A stretch of 64,000 bases of DNA from an uncultured Bacteroidota bacterium (GCA_937124965.1 CAKZLB010000036.1:1-64000), one strand, 5' to 3'; positions 1 through 12,833 are shown, counted from the stretch's first letter. The notes: a model not told the origin generated them from the sequence alone. Made by a program: numbers and translations.

Positions 1-797
1 CATTATGGTATCTCGCAATTGGAGTAGCTACCATGGCCCTAACTCACATGACCTTTAGTATTGAAGTCATGGCTTGGCTTTCAAGTGTTCCATTTTTAAT
101 TTATCTAAGCATCACAAAAGGCTGGAAATCGCGACTAACTTTTTTTCTCGCATTGGTTTTAGCTTGGTTTTTTGTTGAAACGAGGATTATTAGCAATTCA
201 ATTCCACTGATGCTGATTATTCTGTATTCGATTCCAATTAGTTTATTTATGTTGTATGGAGCAACTGGTCAGCACGACAAGCTATTTGAATGGGTGAAAA
301 AAGCCATTAAGCAAGCTTCCCCACTCCCACTACTTCGATACTCCGACCCAGCAGTTACGAACGATCCAGGGTCTGAACAGTATCATCAACAGCTGTTTAC
401 CGAGGATGTGTTCACAACCAAAACGAAAGACAAACCGAAAAAAGCCTTGCTAGATACTGATGCTGCTGACCATTACAAAGAAAAGTTGTTGAATCATCTT
501 AAAACGGACAAACCACATTTAAACCCAGGACTTACGTTACGTTCACTAGCGGATCAACTGGGCATGAACGCCAACCAACTTTCGTGGTTGTTAAATGATG
601 GTTTTGGCAAAAACTTCAATGAATTCATCAATTATTATCGAGTGGAAGCGTTTAAAAAATTAGCTGTTCAGCCTGATAACTCCAATCTTACCCTTTTGGC
701 AATTGCTTACGATTCTGGTTTTAACTCTAAAACGGTATTCAACACCTATTTCAAAAAGGAAACAGGTAAAACCCCAAAGGAGTTTCTAAGAGGCTGA
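1..797 (+). CDS. AraC-family regulator with membrane N-terminus (5' end outside window)
   Basis: The reading frame is open to the left edge (it already reads LWYLAIGVAT before the first ATG at 33), so the gene is cut by the window. Counting from ATG 33, residues 13-28, 35-53 and 57-76 are hydrophobic and look like the last membrane spans of a sensor domain. A charged linker follows (about 80-150). Residues 165-254 form an AraC-type DNA-binding domain with two helix-turn-helix units, the first around LTLRSLADQLGMNANQLSW and the second around LLAIAYDSGFNSKTVFNTYF, ending in the usual KKETGKTPKEFL. The family is known in Bacteroidota as membrane-anchored one-component regulators; ligand and targets cannot be told. 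No target promoter is visible. Confidence 0.85.
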   Translation, partial: LWYLAIGVATMALTHMTFSIEVMAWLSSVPFLIYLSITKGWKSRLTFFLALVLAWFFVETRIISNSIPLMLIILYSIPISLFMLYGATGQHDKLFEWVKKAIKQASPLPLLRYSDPAVTNDPGSEQYHQQLFTEDVFTTKTKDKPKKALLDTDAADHYKEKLLNHLKTDKPHLNPGLTLRSLADQLGMNANQLSWLLNDGFGKNFNEFINYYRVEAFKKLAVQPDNSNLTLLAIAYDSGFNSKTVFNTYFKKETGKTPKEFLRG

Positions 798-1166
798 CAG
801 CGGCATTGACTGGATCTTCCGATAGCGTAGATTGCCTATAACACCAAATAACGCAGGCGATGTATATTTTTGAGTGACTTTGAGGTCTCTAACCCAAATT
901 ATGCATCACTAAATTTATTTTAGAAATATTTGTTTTCGGGTTTATATATAGCCAAACAAATCCACAATTTATCATTTCACTAGTTGTAGTGATTTCCCCC
1001 ATCGTTGTTTTTTGTACCTTGCACCAATAAGCTAACTGCCTGTTCGGATTAAACCAAGGTTTCGTTTGACTATTGAATGATTGGGTAATGATGGTAGGAT
1101 TTGGCGGATAACAAATAGTTGTGTTTAATTAAAAAAAACAGCATTTAATTATTAATAGAAAATATT
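798..1166. other. Intergenic gap before the TIR gene
   Basis: No convincing ORF or RNA gene is seen in these 369 bases. The last 60 bases are very AT-rich. A GTTGTGTTTAAT stretch near 1124 resembles the GTCTTGTCATTAAT that follows the attC-like palindrome at 1897-2027, so it could be the left boundary of the same cassette. That is inference from a short match. Confidence 0.4.
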
Positions 1167-1883
1167 ATGGCAAGATGTACAGCACCATATAAAGGACATA
1201 GGACAGCCAGCGGAAGGGCAAATTGTCCTGCTTGCGGAGGACGTGGCGGTTATAGCTCCTATTCATATACCTCGCCTTACTCGTCCTACGGAAGTAATTA
1301 TAGAAGTGGAAGTTCAAGTGGTAGAAGTTCAAGTGGTGGAAGCTCGAGAAGTAAAAAAGCAAGTTGGTCAAGCCCTACATCTAGTGTTTACTACACGCCA
1401 GCTGAAATTCGGACACTAACACCAATTCGAGAAAATGTTGAAAAACGTGCGGTCATTCCTGATCTTCGTGACGTTTTCCTATGTCACGCTTGGGACGACC
1501 GAAAACACTCAGCGAAGGAATTACATGATTTACTCGAAGCTAACGGAGTGTCAGTTTGGTTTAGTGAAAAAGATGTTTTGTTAGGCTCTTCCTTATTACG
1601 AGAAATTGATAAGGGGTTAGCTAACTCAAGAGTTGGAATTGTTTTAGTCACTCCAAATTTTATTGACCGAGTAAGAAACGAAGGGATCGCTGAAAAAGAA
1701 CTTTCGGCTCTGTTAGCACGCGATTTACTTGTTCCAATTGTGCACGACACCACTTTTGAAAGACTTCGTGAAGTAAGCCCTTTACTCGGCTCAAGAAGCG
1801 GGCTTGACACGAATGAAGAGTCAATGAATAAAGTGGTATTGAAATTAGCGGAGTTAGTTAAAGTGGAAGAAACAGCAGTTTAA
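1167..1883 (+). CDS. TIR-domain protein with N-terminal zinc-knuckle-like motif
   Basis: 238 residues in three parts. Residues 1-24 carry C4, H11, C20 and C23 in a CxAPxxGH...CPAC arrangement that looks like a small zinc site. Residues 25-75 are a Ser/Gly/Tyr-rich linker. Residues 101 to about 230 are a TIR domain starting RDVFLCHAWDD, with VWFSEKDV carrying the candidate catalytic glutamate E134 and the conserved GIVLVTPNF strand. Bacterial TIR domains commonly cleave NAD+ or make cyclic-ADP-ribose-type signals in anti-phage defence; whether this one does is inference. ATG 1167 is the only good start. There is no SIR2 or SLOG gene beside it, so it is not a standard Thoeris pair. The next gene encodes a nuclease-like protein, separated by an attC-like palindrome. 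Confidence 0.85.
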   Translation: MARCTAPYKGHRTASGRANCPACGGRGGYSSYSYTSPYSSYGSNYRSGSSSGRSSSGGSSRSKKASWSSPTSSVYYTPAEIRTLTPIRENVEKRAVIPDLRDVFLCHAWDDRKHSAKELHDLLEANGVSVWFSEKDVLLGSSLLREIDKGLANSRVGIVLVTPNFIDRVRNEGIAEKELSALLARDLLVPIVHDTTFERLREVSPLLGSRSGLDTNEESMNKVVLKLAELVKVEETAV

Positions 1884-1896
1884 AAATAGAAAACTA

Positions 1897-2027
1897 CACA
1901 TAACAACGCATATAGCATATGGCGGGTGAACGGTTGTCAGCAAGGTTTTCGCTCCGTAGCTAACTTTGGTTTCGGTGGACAGGTAAGTGGTTCGAAACCG
2001 CCTCAAGCCATATGCAAAACGTCTTGT
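1897..2027. repeat. attC-like imperfect palindrome
   Basis: The outer arms GCATATGGC (1915-1923) and GCCATATGC (2007-2015) are exact complements. Next to them GGCGG (1921-1925) pairs with CCGCC (1998-2002), with an unpaired spacer on the right arm. An inner pair, GGTTTCG (1968-1974) with CGAAACC (1993-1999), can form an alternative hairpin. The left end has TAACAAC and the right end AAAACGTC, recalling the outer core sites of integron attC elements. It sits between two possible defence genes. No integrase is in the window, so the assignment is tentative. Confidence 0.45.
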
Positions 2028-2046
2028 CATTAATAAAAAGAAACTT

Positions 2047-4266
2047 ATGATTATAGATGAAACTGCGCTCCGCGTTATAATGAACAGAATGCCAGATGGA
2101 TTTGTATTCGAACAATTCGCCCATAAAATACTTTCAATTGTCCTGGGAGATGAATTCATTCCAGTTGGTGGAAGTGGAGATCAAGGAATTGATGGGTTTC
2201 AATTTATTTATCAGCGAAAAAATCGCTCAAAACTCATTTATCAAATGTCCACTGAAGAAGTTCATTGGAAGCAAAAGAAAAGCAAGATAACTGACACTAT
2301 CACCAAATTAGACAACAACAAAATTGAATACAACAAGCTTTACTTTGTTACTAATCGAAAGGTTGAAAGAAAGGACTCTATTCAGGAAGATCTGTTTAAG
2401 CTACATAAGAAAGATGTACTCATTTATGACCAAGAATGGTTTGTAACTCAGGTACTATCTGATACATCTTGTGCGGATGTTTATAGGAGTTTTCTTGAAA
2501 CTTACGTACACGAATACAATAAACCAGGCAAACTGATTGAGGTTGCAGATTTCTCTGGTGACCCAAGACTATACACGTTTCTTCGTCACCAAGTAGATGA
2601 GGGAGGTAATGAAGCAATTGAGGAAAATATACTCGATGGTCTCATATTATATTCACTTGAGGGAACAGGGAGCGAAATAGGAATATTCAAGAATAAAGAG
2701 GAAGTCATTGAGTCCATTCAAAATTTCACAAAGTTTCAAGTTAAAGATTTCAATAATAAAGTTGAACTAAGACTGACTGCATTATCTTCTAAAACCACAA
2801 ACAAAATAAAGCACCATACAAAAGAAGACTACTATTGTTTACCATACGAGACAAGAATAGCTCTTGCGGAGAGAGATGTTAAAGACTTAGAACTTCAAGA
2901 GTCTTTTAAAGAAGAATCTTTGTCAATAATTAAGACGAATCTCACTATTGTTGATACAAGAGTGCAAAACGTCTATGAATTATTCGAAGAAATTCTGCAT
3001 AACATATATTATAGACAGGGGCTAGAGTTTTCTGAGTTTATTCTCAATCATAATGATAAAGATGTCGTTGACCAGTCTCTTCAAACAATTGTATTTAGTG
3101 TCGTTGATGATTCTAGTGTTGTTATAGAGAATCGTGGTGCGGTTAAAAAAGCATTACTCCTTTCATTAAGAGAGATTGCTTATAATGGTTCGGAAAATCA
3201 AAGAGAATACCTACGGAGAATGTCAAAAACGTACATGATGGTATTCTTGACTCAGAATGATCCAAAAATTTCAATGTTTTTCAAGTCTCTTGCTAACAAG
3301 CTTGAAGTTTATGTAGGAACGTCAATCATTGTTCCTGCTTTGTCAGAATTATTCTTAAATGGTGAAAATAAGCGCTATTGGAATTTACTACTCGGAGCAC
3401 GAGCTGCTGGAGTAAGTTTAAAAATTAATGAATACATAGTTGACGAGCTTGTAAGCCATATCCGAGGAATTGATAATACCTATAAAAGCCTATACCAACA
3501 TTGTGAGTCAGATTATCTGCAAGATGACATAACATTCCTTTATGTTGAAGAAATTCTTTTAAGATCATACTTCTATGCTAGACTTAGAGGTCGAATTACC
3601 GATTTTAATGGTTTTCTGATGAAGTTTGCAAATCCTAACCTGAGTACTTTGCGTAGCGATATAATTCAATTTCTAAAAGACGTTTTGGGTATTGAATATG
3701 TCACTCTAGCATCTCAAAATGTTTCTCTTGATGCTAAGGAAGTTCAGAAACTTGTTGAGCACCTTAAATCAAAAAAACAATCTGAAAAGCGAGCGGAAGT
3801 AGATGCTAAGTTAATTCTACACCTATACAAACTAAGAGAAATAAACAACGAAACAGCAAGTGCTGGAATCTTTGGCTACAAGACGTGGTGGCTTTCTCAA
3901 GACATAAATACTTTCAGATCTGTTAAGGAAGTATTTGGTGACAAATATGATGTAAGCTGCTACATGAGAGCTGATTTTATGTACAAATACATTTCTCTCT
4001 CTCCCAAAAAAGAGGATATTGACACGCTTTATAAGAAGTGCTTCCCTAACCTTCTTGGTGTGAATCTAAGTTATCACCTTCCTCAAGGTGTTAGTGAATT
4101 TGTAAGTCAAATGGTAACAGAGCACAAGGAAACAGATCCCACTGTAGTAAAGCGAACACTTAAGAATTTAACTGAAAAAATTATGTCCTCTTCTGAGCCA
4201 ATCGGTGCAAAAGAATTGAAGTCCTATTTTGAAGATGAACTTGATAAAATCAAAACGAACACATAA
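2047..4266 (+). CDS. Large protein with Mrr-like (PD-(D/E)XK) N-terminal domain
   Basis: 739 residues from ATG 2047. An upstream in-frame ATG at 1987 lies inside the palindrome and is not preferred. Residues 15-110 resemble Mrr-type restriction endonuclease domains: E22 in the first helix, then VGGSGDQGIDGF with D45 and D49. The usual QxK is here Q66-M67-S68 (IYQMST), so the catalytic lysine is either lost or replaced by one farther on (K75 is a candidate). Residues after about 150 are not recognised. A stretch near 420-560 (GTSIIVPALSELFL and, later, a TWWLSQD motif) faintly recalls PIN-like nucleases; this is a guess. It follows the TIR gene on the same strand and may be the second half of a defence pair. 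Substrate and activation are unknown. Confidence 0.6.
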   Translation: MIIDETALRVIMNRMPDGFVFEQFAHKILSIVLGDEFIPVGGSGDQGIDGFQFIYQRKNRSKLIYQMSTEEVHWKQKKSKITDTITKLDNNKIEYNKLYFVTNRKVERKDSIQEDLFKLHKKDVLIYDQEWFVTQVLSDTSCADVYRSFLETYVHEYNKPGKLIEVADFSGDPRLYTFLRHQVDEGGNEAIEENILDGLILYSLEGTGSEIGIFKNKEEVIESIQNFTKFQVKDFNNKVELRLTALSSKTTNKIKHHTKEDYYCLPYETRIALAERDVKDLELQESFKEESLSIIKTNLTIVDTRVQNVYELFEEILHNIYYRQGLEFSEFILNHNDKDVVDQSLQTIVFSVVDDSSVVIENRGAVKKALLLSLREIAYNGSENQREYLRRMSKTYMMVFLTQNDPKISMFFKSLANKLEVYVGTSIIVPALSELFLNGENKRYWNLLLGARAAGVSLKINEYIVDELVSHIRGIDNTYKSLYQHCESDYLQDDITFLYVEEILLRSYFYARLRGRITDFNGFLMKFANPNLSTLRSDIIQFLKDVLGIEYVTLASQNVSLDAKEVQKLVEHLKSKKQSEKRAEVDAKLILHLYKLREINNETASAGIFGYKTWWLSQDINTFRSVKEVFGDKYDVSCYMRADFMYKYISLSPKKEDIDTLYKKCFPNLLGVNLSYHLPQGVSEFVSQMVTEHKETDPTVVKRTLKNLTEKIMSSSEPIGAKELKSYFEDELDKIKTNT

Positions 4267-4288: not shown

Positions 4289-5314
4289 ATGGCAAACCGT
4301 AAACAAATTACATTCGCAAATTGCAACCTGTTCAACCTGCAACTACCAAACAAACCAATGTACAATGGTAGCAAATGGACAAAAAAACAGTACGACAAGA
4401 AAATTGATTGGACTGTAAAAATTATCTCAGCGTTGAATGCCGACGTAATTGGATTTCAAGAGCTGTGGCATGCCGACGCATTAACAGAGGTGTTTACCAA
4501 AGCCGGTTTATTGGATGACTACGTTTTAATGACAGAACCCGCAAACGGCTCTAAAATCATCTGTGCAGCGGCAGTTAAAAAAACGTTGTCGCCAGGAACT
4601 CCCAGTTGGATGACGAAATTCCCGGACAAATTTAAATTAGAAAGTAAGGGTGGTGACAATCAAACTCCAAACATTCAAGTCAATATCGACAGTTATTCTC
4701 GTCCTGTTTTGCGGTTTACGGTTACACCTCGCAAGAACCAAACAATCAATGTTTGTGTATGTCACTTTAAATCGAAGGCACCAACCCAGCTCTGGAAAAA
4801 TAAGTGGTACAAAGAAGATAAAAAAACCTACGCTCCACATGCCGAGGGAATTGGCTCTGCACTTTCAACGATTCGACGTACAGCAGAAGCTGCTGCATTG
4901 AGAATGACATTGGTGGATGAACTTAAAGGTACCGATACCTCAATGGTGGTATTAGGAGATCTAAACGATGCACAGCTAAGTAACACGTTGAATGTTTTAA
5001 CAGGTCAACCCACTTATTTAACCGTTTTATCAAAAGGTGGAAGCGACACAGATTTGTACACGGTTGCAACGCTTCAAGAATATCGTAGTTTAAGAGATGT
5101 ATACTACACACACATTCACCAAAATATCAAAGAGTCTTTAGACCATATTTTAGTTTCACAAGAGTTTTACGACAATAGTAAAAAACGTATTTGGGCTTTC
5201 GCTGGAATGGATATTTTGAATGACCATCTTCACACGGATGACCACAAAGAAGATGGCTCATCAGATCACGGCATTGTGAAGGTGACATTTAAATACAAAC
5301 CAGAAAAGAAATAA
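4289..5314 (+). CDS. Endonuclease/exonuclease/phosphatase (EEP) family protein
   Basis: 341 residues from ATG 4289; the in-frame ATG at 4229 overlaps the previous gene and gives an unrelated basic tail. The EEP fold is indicated by the N-terminal strand with asparagines (FANCNLFNL, residues 9-15), DVIGFQELW with metal-binding E58, a central strand with cysteines and histidine (NVCVCHFKSKAP), VVLGDLNDAQLS (catalytic Asp and Asn) and the C-terminal SSDHGIVKV (SDH motif). The family includes nucleases and sugar or lipid phosphodiesterases. No signal peptide is seen, so a cytoplasmic enzyme is likely. It begins 22 bases after the nuclease-like gene and may share its transcript. The substrate cannot be predicted. 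Confidence 0.85.
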   Translation: MANRKQITFANCNLFNLQLPNKPMYNGSKWTKKQYDKKIDWTVKIISALNADVIGFQELWHADALTEVFTKAGLLDDYVLMTEPANGSKIICAAAVKKTLSPGTPSWMTKFPDKFKLESKGGDNQTPNIQVNIDSYSRPVLRFTVTPRKNQTINVCVCHFKSKAPTQLWKNKWYKEDKKTYAPHAEGIGSALSTIRRTAEAAALRMTLVDELKGTDTSMVVLGDLNDAQLSNTLNVLTGQPTYLTVLSKGGSDTDLYTVATLQEYRSLRDVYYTHIHQNIKESLDHILVSQEFYDNSKKRIWAFAGMDILNDHLHTDDHKEDGSSDHGIVKVTFKYKPEKK

Positions 5315-5422
5315 GAAGTAATACATACTCACACCTCAATGGCACTTATAAAAGTACAATAAACGTATAATCTAGGGCATACCTACTCAGATTGACTTTA
5401 AACTTCGCAGGATATTATTTCT

Positions 5423-5596
5423 ATGCAAAATCTCTCAATCAGAGCAATAGGCAGTCGGTTATTGGGGGCCCGCGCTTCGCATCGTTGCTTGATCTTTTGG
5501 TTCCCACCTTTAAGCGTTGGCAAGACTAGAATACAGGTGCTTAAGTCATTGCAAGTGCAATTAGTGGTTGTAATTAAGCGGATAAGTATATTTTGA
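5423..5596 (+). pseudogene. Truncated copy of the 5' end of the DMP19 gene at 7120
   Basis: Bases 5387-5457 align without gaps to 7084-7154, covering the upstream leader and the first codons of the DMP19-family gene. Both read AACTTCGCAGGATA, then the same ATGCAAAATCTCTC start. The products begin MQNLSIRAIGSRLLGARA here and MQNLSNRAIISRLYSAAN there. Similarity then stops and the frame runs through unrelated codons to TGA at 5596, 57 codons in all. This is a broken duplicate. The rest of the gap 5315-5658 shows no other gene; it includes a GC-richer patch near 5465-5485. Confidence 0.7.
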
Positions 5597-5658
5597 CTAA
5601 TTTCCCAACACTTGATATAGCAACTCCAACATAAATCCAAAGAAAAGAAACCAATCCA

Positions 5659-6174
5659 ATGTACTATAAAACACTCTTACTCCTCGTCCTCTTCACCCCA
5701 ACAACCAGCCTGTTCGGACAAACGTATAGCGATACGATTAATCTTGAAGCATATAACGCTAAGCTTTCTTATGTGGAATATGTTATGGACGATGCAACCA
5801 TCTTACTTAAGAAAGATAGCATTAACGTTTATTTAAAAGCGTTGGAATTTGACTCTAGTACCTATCCTCAAGCTGATTCCGTACAAAAAATATTGTTAAA
5901 GCAATTGGCAGGGAAAGAACACATTGTTATCAATCACGACTCAGACATTAGCTTTATGTTAGTCTGGCAATATGTTAAAGCAAAAATTTTAGTCGGTGAA
6001 TTTGCCCTACGACATAAAGGAAAATATCTAACCACGATTCAAAAGTCCGAAGAAATTGATTGGGCAGACTTTGGTGATGGGATGTCTGGCGGAGGTTCAA
6101 CCATTTATAACTATTGGATTCCAGTCGAAAATGATGAAAAAGTCTCACAAATACTTATCTTTTCATTCGAATAA
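5659..6174 (+). CDS. Hypothetical exported protein
   Basis: 171 residues. A signal peptide is visible (MYYKTLLLLVLFTPTTSLFGQ), so the protein is exported. The mature part is mixed charged and aromatic with no domain I recognise; a glycine-rich GDGMSGGGS turn lies near residues 145-153. It precedes another exported protein by 24 bases on the same strand, so the two probably share a transcript. Function unknown. Confidence 0.7.
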   Translation: MYYKTLLLLVLFTPTTSLFGQTYSDTINLEAYNAKLSYVEYVMDDATILLKKDSINVYLKALEFDSSTYPQADSVQKILLKQLAGKEHIVINHDSDISFMLVWQYVKAKILVGEFALRHKGKYLTTIQKSEEIDWADFGDGMSGGGSTIYNYWIPVENDEKVSQILIFSFE

Positions 6175-6198
6175 ATTAACACCTAAAAACATATCACT

Positions 6199-6927
6199 AT
6201 GAAATACCTCTTTTTTACCATTGGACTGCTTTGTTTCAATGTACTAAGCGCTCAAGACACATTAAAACTATCTGTAACCAATGCAGAACCAAGAATTGGT
6301 GAGAAAATTCAACTATCATTTTCGTTTGAGTTCTTTTCAGATGACCTTAAAAGTCAGCTAAATGATGGAATCGAAATGACATCGTCCATGCATGTCTACG
6401 GAATGCAAAATGATAAATTCACTCGTTCACTTGAGTTTACTAAAACAGGAAAACACACCATTGGTCCGTTTACTTTCGATTTTAATGGAAAGACAATTGT
6501 CACAGATTCCATTGTTGTCAACGTAGCAGAAAAGTTACCGTTCAAAGAAGGCGTTTGGATTAGACTAATTTCGGATCAAGAAGGTAATAAGTTTTTGATC
6601 GTTGAACAGCAAATTCAGAATAAATCTGACGTTTCAAAAAGCAAAAATGGATTTTCACAAACCGTAGGTGGAAAGCTTGATGACAAGGCTGAATTTGTTG
6701 AAATAATGGACGTATCAGAACCAACAATAAAAATCAGCTTTAGACTGGGGAATGTCAATACGCGAATGAATGACGAAGATATGCTTGCTCCTGGTTTCAC
6801 TTATTCTTTGAAGAAGTATGTCGTTACGTTGGATGAGGACTATGATGGAGACTTTACCCTAACAAAGAAGCATCTAAAAAACCTTCCGAAGAAAACTCCT
6901 TTTACTGAAATTGAGATAACGAATTAG
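6199..6927 (+). CDS. Exported BatD-like beta-sandwich protein
   Basis: 242 residues with a signal peptide (MKYLFFTIGLLCFNVLSAQ). Residues 20-120 show the pattern of an N-terminal BatD/oxygen-tolerance-type beta domain: LSVTNAEPRIGEKIQLSFSF, then FTKTGKHTIGPFTFDFNG and TDSIVVNV. Full BatD proteins are longer and carry membrane spans and repeats; this one has a single domain plus a short alpha/beta tail and no membrane anchor. It may bind a partner in the periplasm or on the outer membrane. The family assignment is by pattern only. It sits 24 bases after another exported protein. Confidence 0.6.
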   Translation: MKYLFFTIGLLCFNVLSAQDTLKLSVTNAEPRIGEKIQLSFSFEFFSDDLKSQLNDGIEMTSSMHVYGMQNDKFTRSLEFTKTGKHTIGPFTFDFNGKTIVTDSIVVNVAEKLPFKEGVWIRLISDQEGNKFLIVEQQIQNKSDVSKSKNGFSQTVGGKLDDKAEFVEIMDVSEPTIKISFRLGNVNTRMNDEDMLAPGFTYSLKKYVVTLDEDYDGDFTLTKKHLKNLPKKTPFTEIEITN

Positions 6928-7119
6928 CCACATTGTTAATACTCTTGTGAGACTTTGACGTTAAGTGATATTAGAAAATCATCGTATAGTATTAGAATTA
7001 AAAAAAACTACTACCTAATTGGAATAGTTTTATTTGACAAAGCCCAAAAGGTTAAATATATCCATAATCCATCGTATTTCGACTCAAATTGATTTATAAC
7101 TTCGCAGGATAATATTTCT

Positions 7120-7599
7120 ATGCAAAATCTCTCGAATAGAGCAATCATAAGCCGTTTATATAGTGCTGCTAATCAGCATTTAGAGGCAGCGAATATTAAC
7201 ATTGATCAATGGTCAAATTGGTATACCAGCGTACAAGATTTGATACTTCCAGAAAAAATGGTCTACGTCATCGTTCACTTAAATAAAGCGGTGACGGAAG
7301 GTGGGTTTGAAGCATTTTACACAAATAATCTTGGCATTTTTGCACCTGAAATTGTACACGCGCTGAACGAAATTCAAGCCACTGAAACTGCAGACATTGT
7401 TGAACGGACATTGCATATCGTAAATCCTGACGGATTGCTAGATGATGCGTTTAAAGAGTTTGTTTTCAACGTTACGTTATCTGAGTCGCAAGTCAAACAA
7501 CTGTATGCCCAAGATGTCCGTTATGACCAACTTCACGGCAATGAGAACTTAGAAGATTTGTTAGGAGACTACCTGAAATCTATGATTTCTTTGGGATAA
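7120..7599 (+). CDS. DMP19-family protein
   Basis: 159 residues, cytoplasmic. The core matches the DMP19 (DUF4375) pattern: a VIVHLNKAVTEGGFEAFYTNN helix with the GGF..F motif, followed by IFAPEIVHALNEIQATETADIVERTL, a helical repeat in which the family normally reads as aged Gly/Ala helices. DMP19 was described as a DNA-mimic regulator in Neisseria, but most members are uncharacterised, so no role is claimed. Its leader and first codons are duplicated at 5387-5457. Confidence 0.75.
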   Translation: MQNLSNRAIISRLYSAANQHLEAANINIDQWSNWYTSVQDLILPEKMVYVIVHLNKAVTEGGFEAFYTNNLGIFAPEIVHALNEIQATETADIVERTLHIVNPDGLLDDAFKEFVFNVTLSESQVKQLYAQDVRYDQLHGNENLEDLLGDYLKSMISLG

Positions 7600-7731
7600 A
7601 AACTCCATGAAATAGTGTACGTTGAAACGAACATTCGTTCAAAGATAAGAGGTTAGTTTTCTAGATGATTCGTGTCGTGAAAGCACTCCGACTATCTAAC
7701 CCAATCCATATTGTTGTAATTTAGCGAATTC

Positions 7732-8898
7732 ATGAAATACCTCATAGCCATTTTAAGCGTTTGCTTTTTTGAATCTACCTGGGCTCAAACCAGCGATACG
7801 GTAGATATGTACTACTATAAGAACTCACTGTACAACCATTTAGAAACGGGCAACAGTGATGCAAATTCAAGCACCAATGTGGGTAATTGGATTGCTCGTT
7901 TTACAGCAATATCAGATAATCCCAAAACAGCAACTCTAGGTTCTGTATTTGGTTTTTTTCCACAATGGTCAACCCCTCCCAAAGCACACAATTTTCATTC
8001 AGAAATATCTACTCCATACATAGAAAAATGGACAGCCGGATGGAGTGATGCTGTAGAAATTGATTTGCTAGGTTTTGTCCCTGACAATTTCGACGGACAA
8101 GCCTTCGACCCTTCAGACACCACAAACATGGGCGAAGCATATGTTACGAAGCTCGTGGAACTTATAGACGCATGGGAAACAAATGCTCCAAATGCCAATA
8201 GACGATATGTTGTTTATGCGGGTTGGCCAGCATTGAATAAATATGGCGGGAGCAATGACGACCCTAGTACGTTAACATCTGCTGAAATTGCGGCGTGGCA
8301 CAACTATGGTTTAGGTGACTATCAAACGTGGATGGAGTTATTGGTTTCACAACTTCAAACTGAAAGACCATCACTGGATATTAGGCTACATAACATAAGC
8401 AAAGCTGTATTGATGTGTCTTAAAAACACAGTGGTAAAAGATATTCCGAACATCGATTTATTCGAAGATCTCGCCCCACATGGAAGATCTACTTGGTATT
8501 TTCTGGCCGCCATAGCTGAGTACATAGAAGTTTTTGGTGAGAAACCTCCTGCAAATTTTGAATTCAAATCGGAATGGGTTGTTGACTCTGTAGTTACATC
8601 AAATTATCAAACCATTGTAGATTATATATGGATCGTACTTAAAGGAACATCTAATGTTACCGATTATTCTCAAAATAAAGAAGTGTTTACTCTTTATCCA
8701 AATCCTGCTTTACATAGTGTAACAATAAACACATCTCTACAGAACTATGAGGTTAATGTATTTGATGCGTTGGGTCAAACAGTAATACATCAAGAGAATC
8801 AACGCGTTATTGACATAAAGAACCTATCTGTAGGAACCTATGTTCTTGAGCTAAAAAGTGCCGAGATTCAGCAACACACGAGGCTTATGGTCAAATAG
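7732..8898 (+). CDS. T9SS-secreted protein with C-terminal sorting domain
   Basis: 388 residues. Residues 1-18 are a signal peptide (MKYLIAILSVCFFESTWAQ). The last 70 residues are a type A T9SS sorting domain: VFTLYPNPALHSVTINTS, the VNVFDALGQTV strand and NLSVGTYVLELKS. The protein should therefore cross the outer membrane by the type IX system. The middle region, rich in Trp, Asn and Asp (WSTPPKAHNFHSE, YVVYAGWPALNKYGG, an ELLVSQLQTERPSLDIRLHNISKA helix), is not recognised; the layout suggests a catalytic or binding domain of the SGNH or alpha/beta type, but no motif proves it. The gene stands alone with a gap on both sides. Confidence 0.85.
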   Translation: MKYLIAILSVCFFESTWAQTSDTVDMYYYKNSLYNHLETGNSDANSSTNVGNWIARFTAISDNPKTATLGSVFGFFPQWSTPPKAHNFHSEISTPYIEKWTAGWSDAVEIDLLGFVPDNFDGQAFDPSDTTNMGEAYVTKLVELIDAWETNAPNANRRYVVYAGWPALNKYGGSNDDPSTLTSAEIAAWHNYGLGDYQTWMELLVSQLQTERPSLDIRLHNISKAVLMCLKNTVVKDIPNIDLFEDLAPHGRSTWYFLAAIAEYIEVFGEKPPANFEFKSEWVVDSVVTSNYQTIVDYIWIVLKGTSNVTDYSQNKEVFTLYPNPALHSVTINTSLQNYEVNVFDALGQTVIHQENQRVIDIKNLSVGTYVLELKSAEIQQHTRLMVK

Positions 8899-9105
8899 TT
8901 TCATTGATATCACTTAGTGTTCCTAATGAACAGCGCACCGTTGTTTTGTCGTTTACTTCTTTACCTATTTCAATTTGGGTTGCTTTTATAGCTACGATTG
9001 AAATCTAGGGAATCATTCACTCAATTTAACCTGAAAAAAGGCTGCAGAATTTCATTGAAAAAATCTAATTCATGTATCTTGCCGCCCTTGAAAAAAACCA
9101 GGAGA

Positions 9106-10974
9106 ATGGAAGAAAATAAAATGTTAGAGTACACAAAAGAAGTAATTAAAAACATGCCAACCGATTGGTTTGATTTAACTACTCACCGACTCGATATTTA
9201 CGATGAACAACAAGCTAAAACTCAGTTTATCGAAGAGTTTGAAAAGTTGTATCAGGAAAACAACGCGTCGACTGAGGCACTCAGTGCATTGCCTACAGCG
9301 TACGACTATATTCGGTTAGGTCATCCGTTGTCGTGCATTCTCGAATGGGTTGTTGGTCACCTAAACCATCTAGACTTTAAAAATGTGATTAGTTTTTCTT
9401 CCAAAACAATTCCTGTTATGGCCATTCTTAGAAAGAATCTGTTGGATAACAAAAAAACTCAAATTTTATTCAATGGAGAGTTGCCAGAATGTTTTGATGA
9501 AGAGTCATTACGAACTGTTTATGGATACAATTTTGAACTTAAAAAGGTATCAAGTATTGCAGATGTGACTGACTTTGATGGTAGTACGGTGTTTGTTTCA
9601 CACCAGGACGAAATGGACTCGCTTGGACTTACCCAGGCTGTTGACTTTTATGTCGGGCTGCATTCGCACCTCGGAAGTATATTAATCGTAAACGCTAATG
9701 CTAAAAATTTATCAGAAAAACAAACCAATAGTTATGTATCTGAAATACAGCATGTAAGACGAAGAGAGACCATTGCAATGACTCCTGCAAACTCACTTGA
9801 TGCATTGAAATTGTTGGTCGACAAGTCATTGGTTCATACGATAAAAAGTAATGTTGAAGAAGATCGCATAAGTGTTTTAAACTCAATTAAATCAATTACT
9901 GGAACTGAGTTAAAACCATTAGTTGCATCCAGTGGATTGTCTATGCAATATGCCATTATGATGGGATTGGTTAATGATGCATTGGAAAATCACAGCAAAA
10001 AAGCTATCAAATTTGTGGTACCACCTAACTGTTACGGTGGAACCAACGATCAGGCTCGAAGAGTCGCAGCGTGTATAGAAAATGTTGAAGTAGTTGACCT
10101 TCCGGTAGACGGAGATCACAACATGGTAGAAAGCGTTGATTTGGTTTTAGATCAAATTGCAGCTCAAGATGCAATTCCGTATATCATTGCTGAAATTCCA
10201 ACAAATCCAAGAGTTGAAGTTCCTGATCTTCAAAAACTTAAAGAAGTTTTAAGCAAAAAACGTAAAACTCCAAATGGCGATTTGGCCGTTGACCCGGTAT
10301 TTATATTGGATCAAACGTTTTGTCCCAATGTACTATTTTTAGGAGAAGGAGAAATACTATCAACAGTTAGAACCATTTCATATGTAAGTGGATCTAAGTT
10401 TCCAAGTGGTGGAAAATGCACAGCAGGATATTGTGTTGGTAATGCCAAAACAGAAGCTTTAATGAACTACATCGAAAAGCATCTTGTGTTGTGCGACAAC
10501 AGGGCTAGAAACTTACAAATGGCTATACTAGCTAAGCAGTTACCTTCTATGAATCAGCGGATTGCGGATGCTTACAAGAATACACGTGAATTCGTGACGT
10601 ATATAAATGAAGTGCTTCCATCTGCAAAAATCAATTTCGTTTCAGAAGAATTAGCACAACAAGACTTCACTCCTTCTGTTTTTTCATTGGACCTACCGAC
10701 TAAAGGCAACACCGATGAAGAAAGGGAGGCTCATAAAAGAGCGTTGAATCACAAGCTTATTACTCGCATGATTACCGAAATTCCTAATGAAAGCAAGTAT
10801 TGCGTTAGCTATGGCCAGTTAAAAGGATGTTATTGGACGATCCCTGCAACATCCACACAAGGCACAACCAAGGAAGGGGACAAAGACTACATCGCTCGTG
10901 TTTCGCTGTCTCCTAACATGGATTTAGAGTTACATAAGAAGGTGTTCTTGGAATTTGTGGAAGAGAGTTATTAG
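9106..10974 (+). CDS. PLP-dependent Cys/Met-metabolism-type enzyme, long form
   Basis: 622 residues from ATG 9106, chosen because AGGAGA lies directly in front and the upstream in-frame codons are basic and unlike protein. Residues 1-250 are an N-terminal extension (YDYIRLGHPLSCILEWVVGH). The rest is a fold-type I PLP domain of the cystathionine gamma-synthase type: EIPTNPRVEVPDL, FILDQTF and SYVSGSKFPSGGKCTAGY, where K431 is the likely PLP lysine. Ordinary members are about 400 residues, so this is the long variety. The substrate is not clear; sulfur amino-acid metabolism is the family expectation. The stop codon TAG is itself the first part of a heptad repeat array. Confidence 0.8.
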   Translation: MEENKMLEYTKEVIKNMPTDWFDLTTHRLDIYDEQQAKTQFIEEFEKLYQENNASTEALSALPTAYDYIRLGHPLSCILEWVVGHLNHLDFKNVISFSSKTIPVMAILRKNLLDNKKTQILFNGELPECFDEESLRTVYGYNFELKKVSSIADVTDFDGSTVFVSHQDEMDSLGLTQAVDFYVGLHSHLGSILIVNANAKNLSEKQTNSYVSEIQHVRRRETIAMTPANSLDALKLLVDKSLVHTIKSNVEEDRISVLNSIKSITGTELKPLVASSGLSMQYAIMMGLVNDALENHSKKAIKFVVPPNCYGGTNDQARRVAACIENVEVVDLPVDGDHNMVESVDLVLDQIAAQDAIPYIIAEIPTNPRVEVPDLQKLKEVLSKKRKTPNGDLAVDPVFILDQTFCPNVLFLGEGEILSTVRTISYVSGSKFPSGGKCTAGYCVGNAKTEALMNYIEKHLVLCDNRARNLQMAILAKQLPSMNQRIADAYKNTREFVTYINEVLPSAKINFVSEELAQQDFTPSVFSLDLPTKGNTDEEREAHKRALNHKLITRMITEIPNESKYCVSYGQLKGCYWTIPATSTQGTTKEGDKDYIARVSLSPNMDLELHKKVFLEFVEESY

Positions 10975-11036
10975 TGAATAGTGAATAGTGGATAGTGGAT
11001 AGTGGATAGTGGATAGTGGATAGTGGATAGTGGAAA
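10974..11036. repeat. Tandem heptad array (GTGAATA/GTGGATA)
   Basis: Two GTGAATA units, six perfect GTGGATA units and one GTGGAAA unit, beginning inside the stop codon of the PLP gene. The complementary word (CTATTCA on the plus strand) forms the array at 12876-12938, so the two arrays are inverted relative to each other around the inserted genes. Confidence 0.95.
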
Positions 11037-11166
11037 ATAACATTTCATAATTAAACCTAACCGTAACTTTTACGAATAGTGAATATTTTATGTCTTACAA
11101 TGGATTAGTGATTTTTTAGATTTGATTTCGCCCTTTGTCTTCATAGCATTGAAGTAATTAAAACCA

Positions 11167-11517
11167 TTGATGAGGAATTCAATTCTAAAAGATAAAAGTT
11201 ACGTATTTGCAATATCAATTGTCAGGACAGTCCAGTTTTTACAGCTATCGACGAAGGAGTTTGTTTTGAGTAAACAGATTCTAAGAAGTGGAACTGCAAT
11301 TGGTGCGTTAATTGCTGAAGCGCAATTTGGGGAAAGCAAAAAAGACTTTGTTCATAAAATGCACATTGCATTAAAAGAAGCCAACGAAACGATTTACTGG
11401 TTAAACTTACTGATGGACACTGACTATATCGAAGTTGCTAAATTCAATCAGCTTTCTGTGGAATGCACCGAACTAATAAAAATGCTGGTATCAAGTATCA
11501 AAACAGCAAAACAGTAA
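11167..11517 (+). CDS. Four-helix-bundle protein (23S rRNA intervening-sequence type)
   Basis: 116 residues, matching the TIGR02436 family: MRNSILKDKSYVFAISIVRTVQFL, LSKQILRSGTAIGALIAEAQFGESKKDFVHKMHIALKEANETIYWL and a final helix. The GTAIGA..EA....S..DF..K..IALKEA.ET.YWL pattern is characteristic. The family occurs inside spirochaete 23S rRNA intervening sequences and, as free genes, widely in Bacteroidota; its activity is unknown, although its fold relates it to the Avd accessory protein of diversity-generating retroelements. It is flanked on both sides by heptad arrays in the same orientation (10974-11036 and 11518-11560). No reverse transcriptase or variable repeat is nearby. Confidence 0.9.
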   Translation: MMRNSILKDKSYVFAISIVRTVQFLQLSTKEFVLSKQILRSGTAIGALIAEAQFGESKKDFVHKMHIALKEANETIYWLNLLMDTDYIEVAKFNQLSVECTELIKMLVSSIKTAKQ

Positions 11518-11560
11518 ATAGTGAATAGTATAGAGTTTATAGTGTTTATAGTGTTTAGTG
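11518..11560. repeat. Degenerate heptad array after the four-helix-bundle gene
   Basis: Units such as GTGAATA, GTATAGA, GTTTATA and GTGTTTA follow directly after the stop codon. They are in the same orientation as the array at 10974-11036 and run up to the left end of the IS element. Confidence 0.75.
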
Positions 11561-11610
11561 TATTTTGTACGTCCCTGATATAAGTTGACCACAATTTAAA
11601 AAAAGTCAAC

Positions 11611-12003
11611 ATGTCATTACAAGTAAGAAAAATTCGCAAGAATCGAAGGTTTGAAGAGAGCTTCAAACGCCAAATGGTCAAGGATTTCGAAGGAGGCAAA
11701 CACAGTGTTCTTGAGCTGAGCAGTCTTTATGATGTACACCCACAGCTGATTTACAATTGGATTTACCGATATTCACGGTTCAACAAAAAAGGACACCTTG
11801 TTGTGGAAAGTAACAAAAGCACATCATCAAAAGTAAAAGATTTGCAAAAGCGTATCAAAGAGCTGGAGCGTATCGTGGGACAAAAACAGATTATGGTAGA
11901 CTATTATGAGACTATGATTGATTTGGCTAGGGAGCAATATGATATCGACATCAAAAAAAACTCAAACACCCCACAATCTGGAGACTCAAAGAAAAAGAAT
12001 TGA
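11611..12003 (+). CDS. IS3-family transposase OrfA
   Basis: 130 residues. Residues 12-55 form the helix-turn-helix that recognises the IS ends (FEESFKRQMVKDFEGGKHSV, then SSLYDVHPQLIYNWIYRYSR). Residues 75-110 are a leucine-zipper-like coiled coil (VKDLQKRIKELERIVGQKQI). OrfB starts in the -1 frame at the very end of OrfA. The AAAAAG near 11993-11998 may allow -1 slippage to make the OrfAB fusion, and the TTGA overlap would also allow translational coupling. Frames are intact. Confidence 0.92.
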   Translation: MSLQVRKIRKNRRFEESFKRQMVKDFEGGKHSVLELSSLYDVHPQLIYNWIYRYSRFNKKGHLVVESNKSTSSKVKDLQKRIKELERIVGQKQIMVDYYETMIDLAREQYDIDIKKNSNTPQSGDSKKKN

Positions 12004-12833
12004 GTTATAGTATGAATGCTGTTTACTGCCAATTAGGTATAAGTAAACAAGCAGTACATCAGCGCAAAAGGCGTCAAGAACAGCTAGATATGCAGTGGTA
12101 TGACTTGATGGATAAAGCTGACGCCCTTCGCAAAGCACATCCAGGTTGTGGGGTTGAGAAAATGTATTACAAATTAAACCCAGATTTTATTGGTCGAGAC
12201 CGTTTTGTTGAGGCATGTATGGCCTGTGGTTATGGCCTTAAACGAAAACGCAATTATCGCAAGACTACCTATCCAGGTAAGAAGTATTTCCCTAATTTGA
12301 TTGGAGGCCTAAAGGTCAACGGCCCATGTCAGGTGTGGCAGTCAGATATAACCTACTTCGGCATAGGAGGTAAGCATTATTACGGCGTTTTTATCATTGA
12401 CGTGTACACCAAGAAGATTGTAGGTCATAGTGTGTCAGAACATATGTTAGCACTTGCCAATGTCGCGGCATTGAGAAAGGCTCTCAAGCATAATACACCT
12501 CCTTCTTATCATCACTCAGATCGAGGAAGTCAATACGGAAGTAAGCACTACACAAGTATCCTAGAAAAGAACAATGTAGCTATAAGCATGGGCAAGTTGC
12601 CGCAAGAAAACGCCTTTGCAGAACGTATCCATAGGACTATAAAAGAAGAATACATTGAATTTTGGGAACCTTCTACCTTTGGTGAATTAAAACGTTCTGT
12701 TAATAAAGCTGTAAAGCACTATAACACCGAAAGAATACACAACAACTTACAACGAACAACTCCTACACGTTTTGAGGAACTATGGAGTTCTAATCCAAAT
12801 AAACCTGTATTAACTATATTTGAATATCAATAA
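12000..12833 (+). CDS. IS3-family transposase OrfB (DDE integrase)
   Basis: 277 residues if read from TTG 12000, which overlaps the OrfA stop (TTGA); ATG 12012 is an alternative. The N-terminal part is an HTH_21-like region (AHPGCGVEKMYYKL). The catalytic core has the DDE triad: first Asp in WQSDITYFGI, second in HHSDRGSQYGS, Glu in ENAFAERIHRTIKEEY. The C-terminal HYNTERIHNNLQRTTP is typical of IS3. The product cuts and joins DNA strands at the IS ends, together with OrfA or as an OrfAB fusion. Confidence 0.93.
   Translation: MSYSMNAVYCQLGISKQAVHQRKRRQEQLDMQWYDLMDKADALRKAHPGCGVEKMYYKLNPDFIGRDRFVEACMACGYGLKRKRNYRKTTYPGKKYFPNLIGGLKVNGPCQVWQSDITYFGIGGKHYYGVFIIDVYTKKIVGHSVSEHMLALANVAALRKALKHNTPPSYHHSDRGSQYGSKHYTSILEKNNVAISMGKLPQENAFAERIHRTIKEEYIEFWEPSTFGELKRSVNKAVKHYNTERIHNNLQRTTPTRFEELWSSNPNKPVLTIFEYQ

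Follow-up and report, generated by a model that had tools for sequence, protein, structure and literature searches.

A TIR gene of an uncultured Bacteroidota bacterium as a probable cassette of an integron-like system with a XerA-like recombinase

The DNA analysed here (the window) is a 64-kb stretch from an uncultured Bacteroidota bacterium (GCA_937124965.1 CAKZLB010000036.1:1-64000), which forms the start of contig C36 in a genome of 4.09 Mb and 79 contigs. Close to its left end, a gene for a TIR protein and a larger gene for a nuclease-like protein of 739 amino acids (aa) follow each other on the same strand, with an imperfect palindrome between them (Table 1). A first-pass annotation of the window, which located all three correctly, had noted a resemblance of the palindrome to the attC sites of integrons and suggested either that the TIR gene is a captured gene cassette or that the two genes form a new defence pair. 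Our results indicate that the palindrome is very probably an attC-like site of an integron-like cassette system of Bacteroidota, with the TIR gene as one of its cassettes.

A whole-genome DNA search found copies of the palindrome elsewhere in this genome at 86, 87, 80 and 67% identity, those on contigs C49 and C44 each occupying the gap from a gene's stop codon to the start of the following same-strand gene. Arrays of sites varying in sequence could be read on C49, on C44 and at the end of C13. Nineteen sites, that of the window among them, were aligned as seeds for a covariance model (R1), which was used instead of a simple attC scanner because the latter gave 5–9 matches per shuffled 9-kb sequence. 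With this model, the covariance search proposed in the first-pass annotation returned ~76 related sites in the genome (on C8, C9, C13, C15, C44, C49, C64 and C72, and in the window), and the window site, itself one of the 19 seeds, scored 69.8 bits (E 4.9e-18). Rfam gave no match for the palindrome. Its folding energy taken alone is unexceptional (z -0.8), so that folding only this site would have overlooked the site family. The sites punctuate head-to-tail arrays of genes, almost all pointing the same way within any one contig, and their orientation is fixed relative to the preceding gene.

The 19 aligned sites share a common structure, with a 7-bp R box (NNNNAAC/GTTNNNN), spacers of 3 and 5–6 nt and a 6-bp L box, beyond which come an A.C mismatch, 4 bp, a second A.C mismatch and more pairs. 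Covariation measured by pair counts was 0.271, compared to 0.123 in shuffled alignments and at most 0.064 when the pairing was slid. The pair beside the L box, A.C on the top strand and hence T.G on the bottom strand, is present in 50 of 57 sites. With DNA parameters, folding is more stable on the bottom strand than on the top in 15 of the 19 sites (means of -21.0 and -17.1 kcal/mol), while random pieces of the window gave a strand difference of 0.15 kcal/mol (sd 1.8). In integrons, attC is recombined as its bottom strand (PMC2727003), and by analogy the substrate here would be the bottom strand of the attC-like sites in folded form. The consensus GTTRRRY for the R'' box is fitted by only 6/57 sites; its position 4 is a purine in 55/57.

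Were cassettes to circularise after cutting at G^TT, the bases after the GTT at the start of a cassette would be expected to pair with the bases before the AAC at its own end. This pairing reached 6.52 of 8 variable positions on average over 66 cassettes (47 scored at least 7), against 3.28 when the ends were dealt among cassettes (sd 0.18, maximum 3.82 in 1000 rounds) and 3.59 of 8 within each array site. The match extends to ~10 nt, i.e. the first ~10 nt of a cassette pair with its last ~10 nt, and the outer nucleotides of the sites vary between copies yet match the other end of the same cassette. Matched ends were seen both in short units (~260–290 bp between sites) and in a 7.5-kb unit. 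For the TIR unit the pairing is 6/8, between GTTGTGTTTAA (at 1118) and CTACACATAAC (ending at 1904). Of the ten GTT sites in 797-1166, none but that at 1118 pairs at 6/8 or more, and across the whole window a pairing of 6/8 with the TIR cassette end is achieved by just 0.8% of 2874 GTT sites. We thus propose, from its matched ends and attC-like site, that the TIR gene is a gene cassette spanning 1119-2021, now located outside the big arrays. The first-pass annotation had anticipated both this capture and a boundary word before the TIR gene, and both suggestions gain support, as does its comparison with attC through the site family, the R and L boxes, the covariation and the R1 score.

Table 1. 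Features at the left end of the window, all coordinates counted from its first nucleotide.
Feature	Position	Strand	Remarks or evidence
AraC-type regulator gene	33-797	+	gene neighbouring the TIR gene
Left cassette boundary G^TTGTGTTTAA (putative)	1118..1128	+	G at 1118, cassette from 1119; 6/8 pairing with cassette end CTACACATAAC
Proposed TIR gene cassette (gene and attC-like site)	1119..2021	+	ends that match and an attC-like site, both shared with 66 other cassettes in this genome
TIR gene, 238 aa	1167..1883	+	PADLOC ThsB PDLC00424, Pfam TIR_2, homologue alignment, nearest solved folds
attC-like site, 130-bp imperfect palindrome	1898..2027	+	covariance model R1 (score in text); covariation
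R' ACATAAC	1898-1904	+	box of the window attC-like site
L' GCATAT	1908-1913	+	box of the window attC-like site
L'' ATATGC	2010-2015	+	box of the window attC-like site
R'' G^TCTTGT	2021-2027	+	box of the window attC-like site; degenerate
739-aa gene	2047..4266	+	structure model, fold comparison; single-gene cassette in relatives
Endonuclease/exonuclease/phosphatase (EEP) family gene	4289-5314	+	next gene after the 739-aa gene

The 7.5-kb unit lies on C9 (L116, reverse-complement 5100-12580) and has perfectly matched ends, GTTGTATGCC, between two sites; such ends suggest either that cassettes of very large size may also be mobile or that intervening sites went unrecognised. The arrays also hold a small cassette without an open reading frame (start GTTGTAGCCCA, 127 bp between sites), with 11 copies on C8, C9, C15, C44 and C64, and units of ~280 bp recur in the arrays of the same five contigs.

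A search for an integrase, another check put forward in the first-pass annotation, gave an unusual answer: arrays and a recombinase are both present in the genome, but the recombinase is without the domain specific to IntI. No IntI scored over the cut-off in this genome, rated 100% complete, and the search gave only XerA/Xer-like proteins. The best integron-integrase match is a tyrosine recombinase of 405 aa (C13:654292-655503); the first array site follows 211 bp after its gene, and the array continues to the end of C13. This protein scores as a member of the XerA family NF040815 (235.6 bits, cut-off 220) and fails the cut-off for integron integrases, with a match to TIGR02249 that is in two pieces, skips profile positions 180-239 and stays below the cut-off. 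The region of the IntI-specific insertion measures 72 residues in IntI4 and 30 in the recombinase, and 39 of its homologues, aligned with the canonical IntI of another Bacteroidota genome, are also without the insertion. An N-terminal extension of ~110–125 residues precedes the core-binding domain. We infer that this recombinase would act on the attC-like sites.

The association between recombinase and sites could be followed in other genomes. Recombinase homologues (E<1e-40) occur in 57/147 genomes and R1 sites in 39, and 24 of the 39 site-bearing genomes have the recombinase, compared to 57/147 overall (Fisher p 7e-4, only a guide since the genomes share ancestry). All 13 sites found within 20 kb downstream of a recombinase gene share its strand; they come from 10 loci, spread over the genome studied here and eight others. 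Contigs end within 1.4 kb downstream of the recombinase in 15 of 30 loci, and on the upstream side (~1.1 kb) in 2/30. After the recombinase stop codon, mostly 80–100 nt past it, a motif TATAAACAAG^TTA is present in 25/41 loci (upstream 1/41, shuffled 8%). At least two contigs end at this motif, and cassette-start words of the GTTN5CAA type often follow it, making TATAAACAAG^TTA a candidate attI. With the pattern used, no attI-like motif turned up beside the recombinases of Zobellia, Aquimarina or genome G016. The latter carries, on a 2.4-Mb contig (G016:C1), two recombinase homologues, each with same-strand sites downstream. In a broader sample, R1 sites (E<=0.001) were found in 83 of 395 Bacteroidota genomes (~21%).

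In the system that we propose, a gene cassette would consist of one gene or none with one attC-like site after it. A XerA-related tyrosine recombinase, encoded beside the attI-like TATAAACAAG^TTA and with the array usually on its own strand, would do the cutting and joining at G^TT. The TIR cassette would lie directly upstream of the 739-aa gene, whose family also occurs as a single-gene cassette (see below). Integrons are identified by the IntI-specific domain, which is said to be necessary for activity (PMC9668308, PMC8138268; IntegronFinder, PMC9024848). The likeness to them lies in a tyrosine recombinase gene with an adjacent attI-like site (judged by sequence), long unidirectional arrays of mostly single genes, R and L boxes conserved in structure, the G^TT joint, matched cassette ends and a bottom strand that mostly folds better. 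Unlike in integrons, the putative integrase is XerA-like, has an N-terminal extension and lacks the IntI-specific domain; the array is usually on the strand of the integrase gene; R'' rarely fits GTTRRRY, the spacers are of 3 and 5–6 nt and the bottom-strand T.G pairs are conserved; and the own-end match reaches further, to ~10 nt. Since the IntI-specific domain fails as a defining feature, the system would not be filed as an IntI integron, though it would work like one. The recombinase resembles XerA, the archaeal-type Xer, in scoring above the curated cut-off, and differs from it in its extra N-terminal region and in being tied to cassette arrays and an attI-like motif, and is thus not a lone dimer-resolution gene. 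On the whole we consider it fairly probable that Bacteroidota own a widespread integron class, in which an integrase of XerA-like ancestry came to recombine folded sites while lacking the IntI-specific domain, and with many uncharacterised, partly defence-related cassettes uncounted by surveys that require this domain.

Part of this evidence would also suit a conventional integron array, i.e. a cluster of attC sites lacking integron-integrases (CALIN) or a superintegron, whose canonical IntI has been lost or is missing from the assembly and to which the XerA-like recombinase is a bystander. The sites do resemble attC (NNNNAAC/GTTNNNN ends, L boxes, cassettes of a single reading frame), canonical integrons occur, if rarely, in Bacteroidota (PMC9024848), and another genome of the phylum has a TIR homologue beside a real but apparently disrupted intI (L101, described below). 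We regard this explanation as improbable given the failure of any IntI to pass the cut-off in a genome rated complete, the poor fit of R'' to GTTRRRY and the linkage of recombinase and array on a consistent strand in 10 loci together with the attI-like motif in 25/41; it is because of the linkage and attI evidence that the idea of a bystander recombinase was set aside.

Several observations weigh against a cassette system run by the XerA-like recombinase. The evidence is wholly comparative, with recombination itself inferred, and several of the statistics rest on the sites of one genome. The linkage count uses only the top site matches per genome, which under-samples both linkage and its absence; two upstream sites lie on the strand opposite to the recombinase, which is how classical integrons are laid out (G030:C24, G085:C15); recombinase homologues without a nearby array or motif exist, and 16/41 loci are without the motif. 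In an assembly of 79 contigs a canonical intI could sit in a gap, though relatives repeat the linkage of recombinase and array. At the locus itself, the ends of the TIR cassette match imperfectly (6/8, one of the pairs being G.T), the R'' to its right is of degenerate sequence (GTCTTGT), and the window site is among the four exceptions in strand folding (-17.2 top vs -16.1 bottom kcal/mol). No empty insertion site was found in relatives, where the TIR, 739-aa and EEP genes are all absent, and the window has no site after the 739-aa gene and yielded no own-end partner there.

Turning to the cargo, the TIR protein matches the PADLOC ThsB model PDLC00424 over its whole length (370 bits, residues 1-232) and Pfam TIR_2 (E 8.6e-17). 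Its N-terminus has a conserved C4-H11-C20-C23 arrangement, zinc-ribbon-like, followed by a Ser/Gly-rich linker and by the TIR domain (~101-231), in which E134 is invariant in 8 homologues; the nearest solved folds include bacterial TIR NADases. Homologues 60–73% identical are found on plasmids of Acinetobacter, Alphaproteobacteria, Enterococcus and Planctomycetes, with 195 plasmid records at E<=1e-20. The resemblance to Thoeris goes as far as ThsB and no ThsA adjoins the TIR gene, which is flanked here by the AraC-type regulator gene and the 739-aa gene; likewise, none of the five plasmid TIR loci inspected has a SIR2/ThsA-like gene annotated nearby. A STALD search of the genome for ThsA, which lacked a positive control, gave no match. 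The TIR protein is probably a stand-alone defence protein, which would either cleave NAD or produce a signal for an effector whose gene lies elsewhere.

The only SIR2_2 protein of the genome (>870 aa, contig C74, 137266) is possibly a separate defence gene. One TIR homologue (68%) stands alone between nrdB-like and nrdA-like genes (L099, G449:C1 1489-2211). Another ThsB-family homologue adjoins, in divergent orientation, a canonical intI that looks frameshifted near its end (L101, G321:C1 1-2199); it is in the position of a first cassette, and no site was identified after it.

The 739-aa protein has no Pfam match, and its family is undescribed in Pfam and PADLOC. In the structure model (pLDDT 73, pTM 0.44), residues 3-151 take a PD-(D/E)XK-like fold (VIA-align Z 9.8 to Avs4, 9.4 to LlaBIII, 9.2 to AspBHI), residues ~190-277 are winged-helix-like, and residues ~415-655 are PIN-like (Z 10.7 to VapC15), while plain Foldseek gave weak matches (best E 0.07). 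The two folds relate the protein to the PD-(D/E)XK nucleases of the Avs/Cap4, LlaBIII and MspJI types and to the VapC/HARP PIN nucleases, in line with its description in the first-pass annotation as nuclease-like. It differs from both in having the two folds on one chain with a winged-helix-like middle, outside Pfam and PADLOC. E22, D45, D49, Q66 and K80 are invariant in the family (D49 across 15 homologues); the Lys of the usual QxK is replaced by an invariant Ser68 and the first PIN Asp is unconserved, which makes catalysis uncertain. LmuA matches weakly (19 bits, residues 21-108 only) and in 1/15 family members, and no LmuB-like or other partner gene is conserved in 16 loci, unlike in Lamassu. 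It is probably an independent defence protein with two putative nuclease domains.

Its 16 relatives (40–61% identity) are mostly from Bacteroidota, and four loci of the family have R1 sites near. In Aquimarina latercula DSM 2041 the homologue has GTTAGCCACA ahead of its start and TGTGGCTAAC plus a site behind it, with a 10/10 end match, and in the metagenome-assembled genome SKW94 it forms a cassette with a 9-nt end match. These matched ends suggest that the 739-aa family travels as a single-gene cassette; with no site after it in the window, the gene here would be either a cassette that has lost its site or a non-cassette gene.

That the two proteins form a two-gene defence system, with a TIR-made nucleotide signal activating the nuclease, was the other possibility raised in the first-pass annotation. 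The genes are on the same strand, 163 bp apart and both defence-like, with conserved residues of catalytic type. The homologues, however, do not co-occur: a search of genomes for the two side by side found no TIR gene within flanks of up to 6 kb at any of the 16 loci that carry a 739-aa family member, neither gene was found in 146 relatives, and three chromosomal TIR homologues and the five inspected plasmid loci are without the nuclease gene. Each is thus found alone, the 739-aa gene elsewhere as a self-contained cassette, and no known ligand-binding domain was recognised in its product. A fixed pair therefore seems most unlikely, and judging from these distributions the two appear to be independent mobile genes. 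In this genome they may be transcribed jointly from one promoter. Least credible of all is that the palindromes are dispersed repeats, either repetitive extragenic palindromic (REP) or miniature inverted-repeat transposable element (MITE)-like, or Xer-type modules (like pdif), placed between genes by chance: they are repeats with partly common sequence that break contigs, but their orientation is fixed relative to the gene in front, their outer nucleotides are copy-specific yet match the other end of their own cassette, and an attI-like site lies beside the recombinase.

Our literature search, with preprints and most subscription papers outside its reach, found no description of such a system. 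Attachment sites of the attI and attC kind used without the IntI domain would mean that Xer-type recombinases arrived at single-strand capture of cassettes by a second route, and the known cassettes would be joined by a large uncatalogued pool, judging by the R1 matches in 83/395 sampled Bacteroidota genomes. Two defence-like genes would be among those that travel in this way, a mobile solitary TIR of the ThsB family and a new double-nuclease family.

Relatives of both proteins were also seen on plasmids of other bacteria. One of the TIR family is on a 9.9-kb mobilizable Acinetobacter baumannii plasmid with tet(39) (NZ_CP098793.1 4301-5011), and plasmids of Klebsiella, E. coli and Citrobacter encode hypothetical proteins remotely related to the 739-aa protein (~22% identity, with 94% of the length covered; L125 3941-6148; H21-H28).

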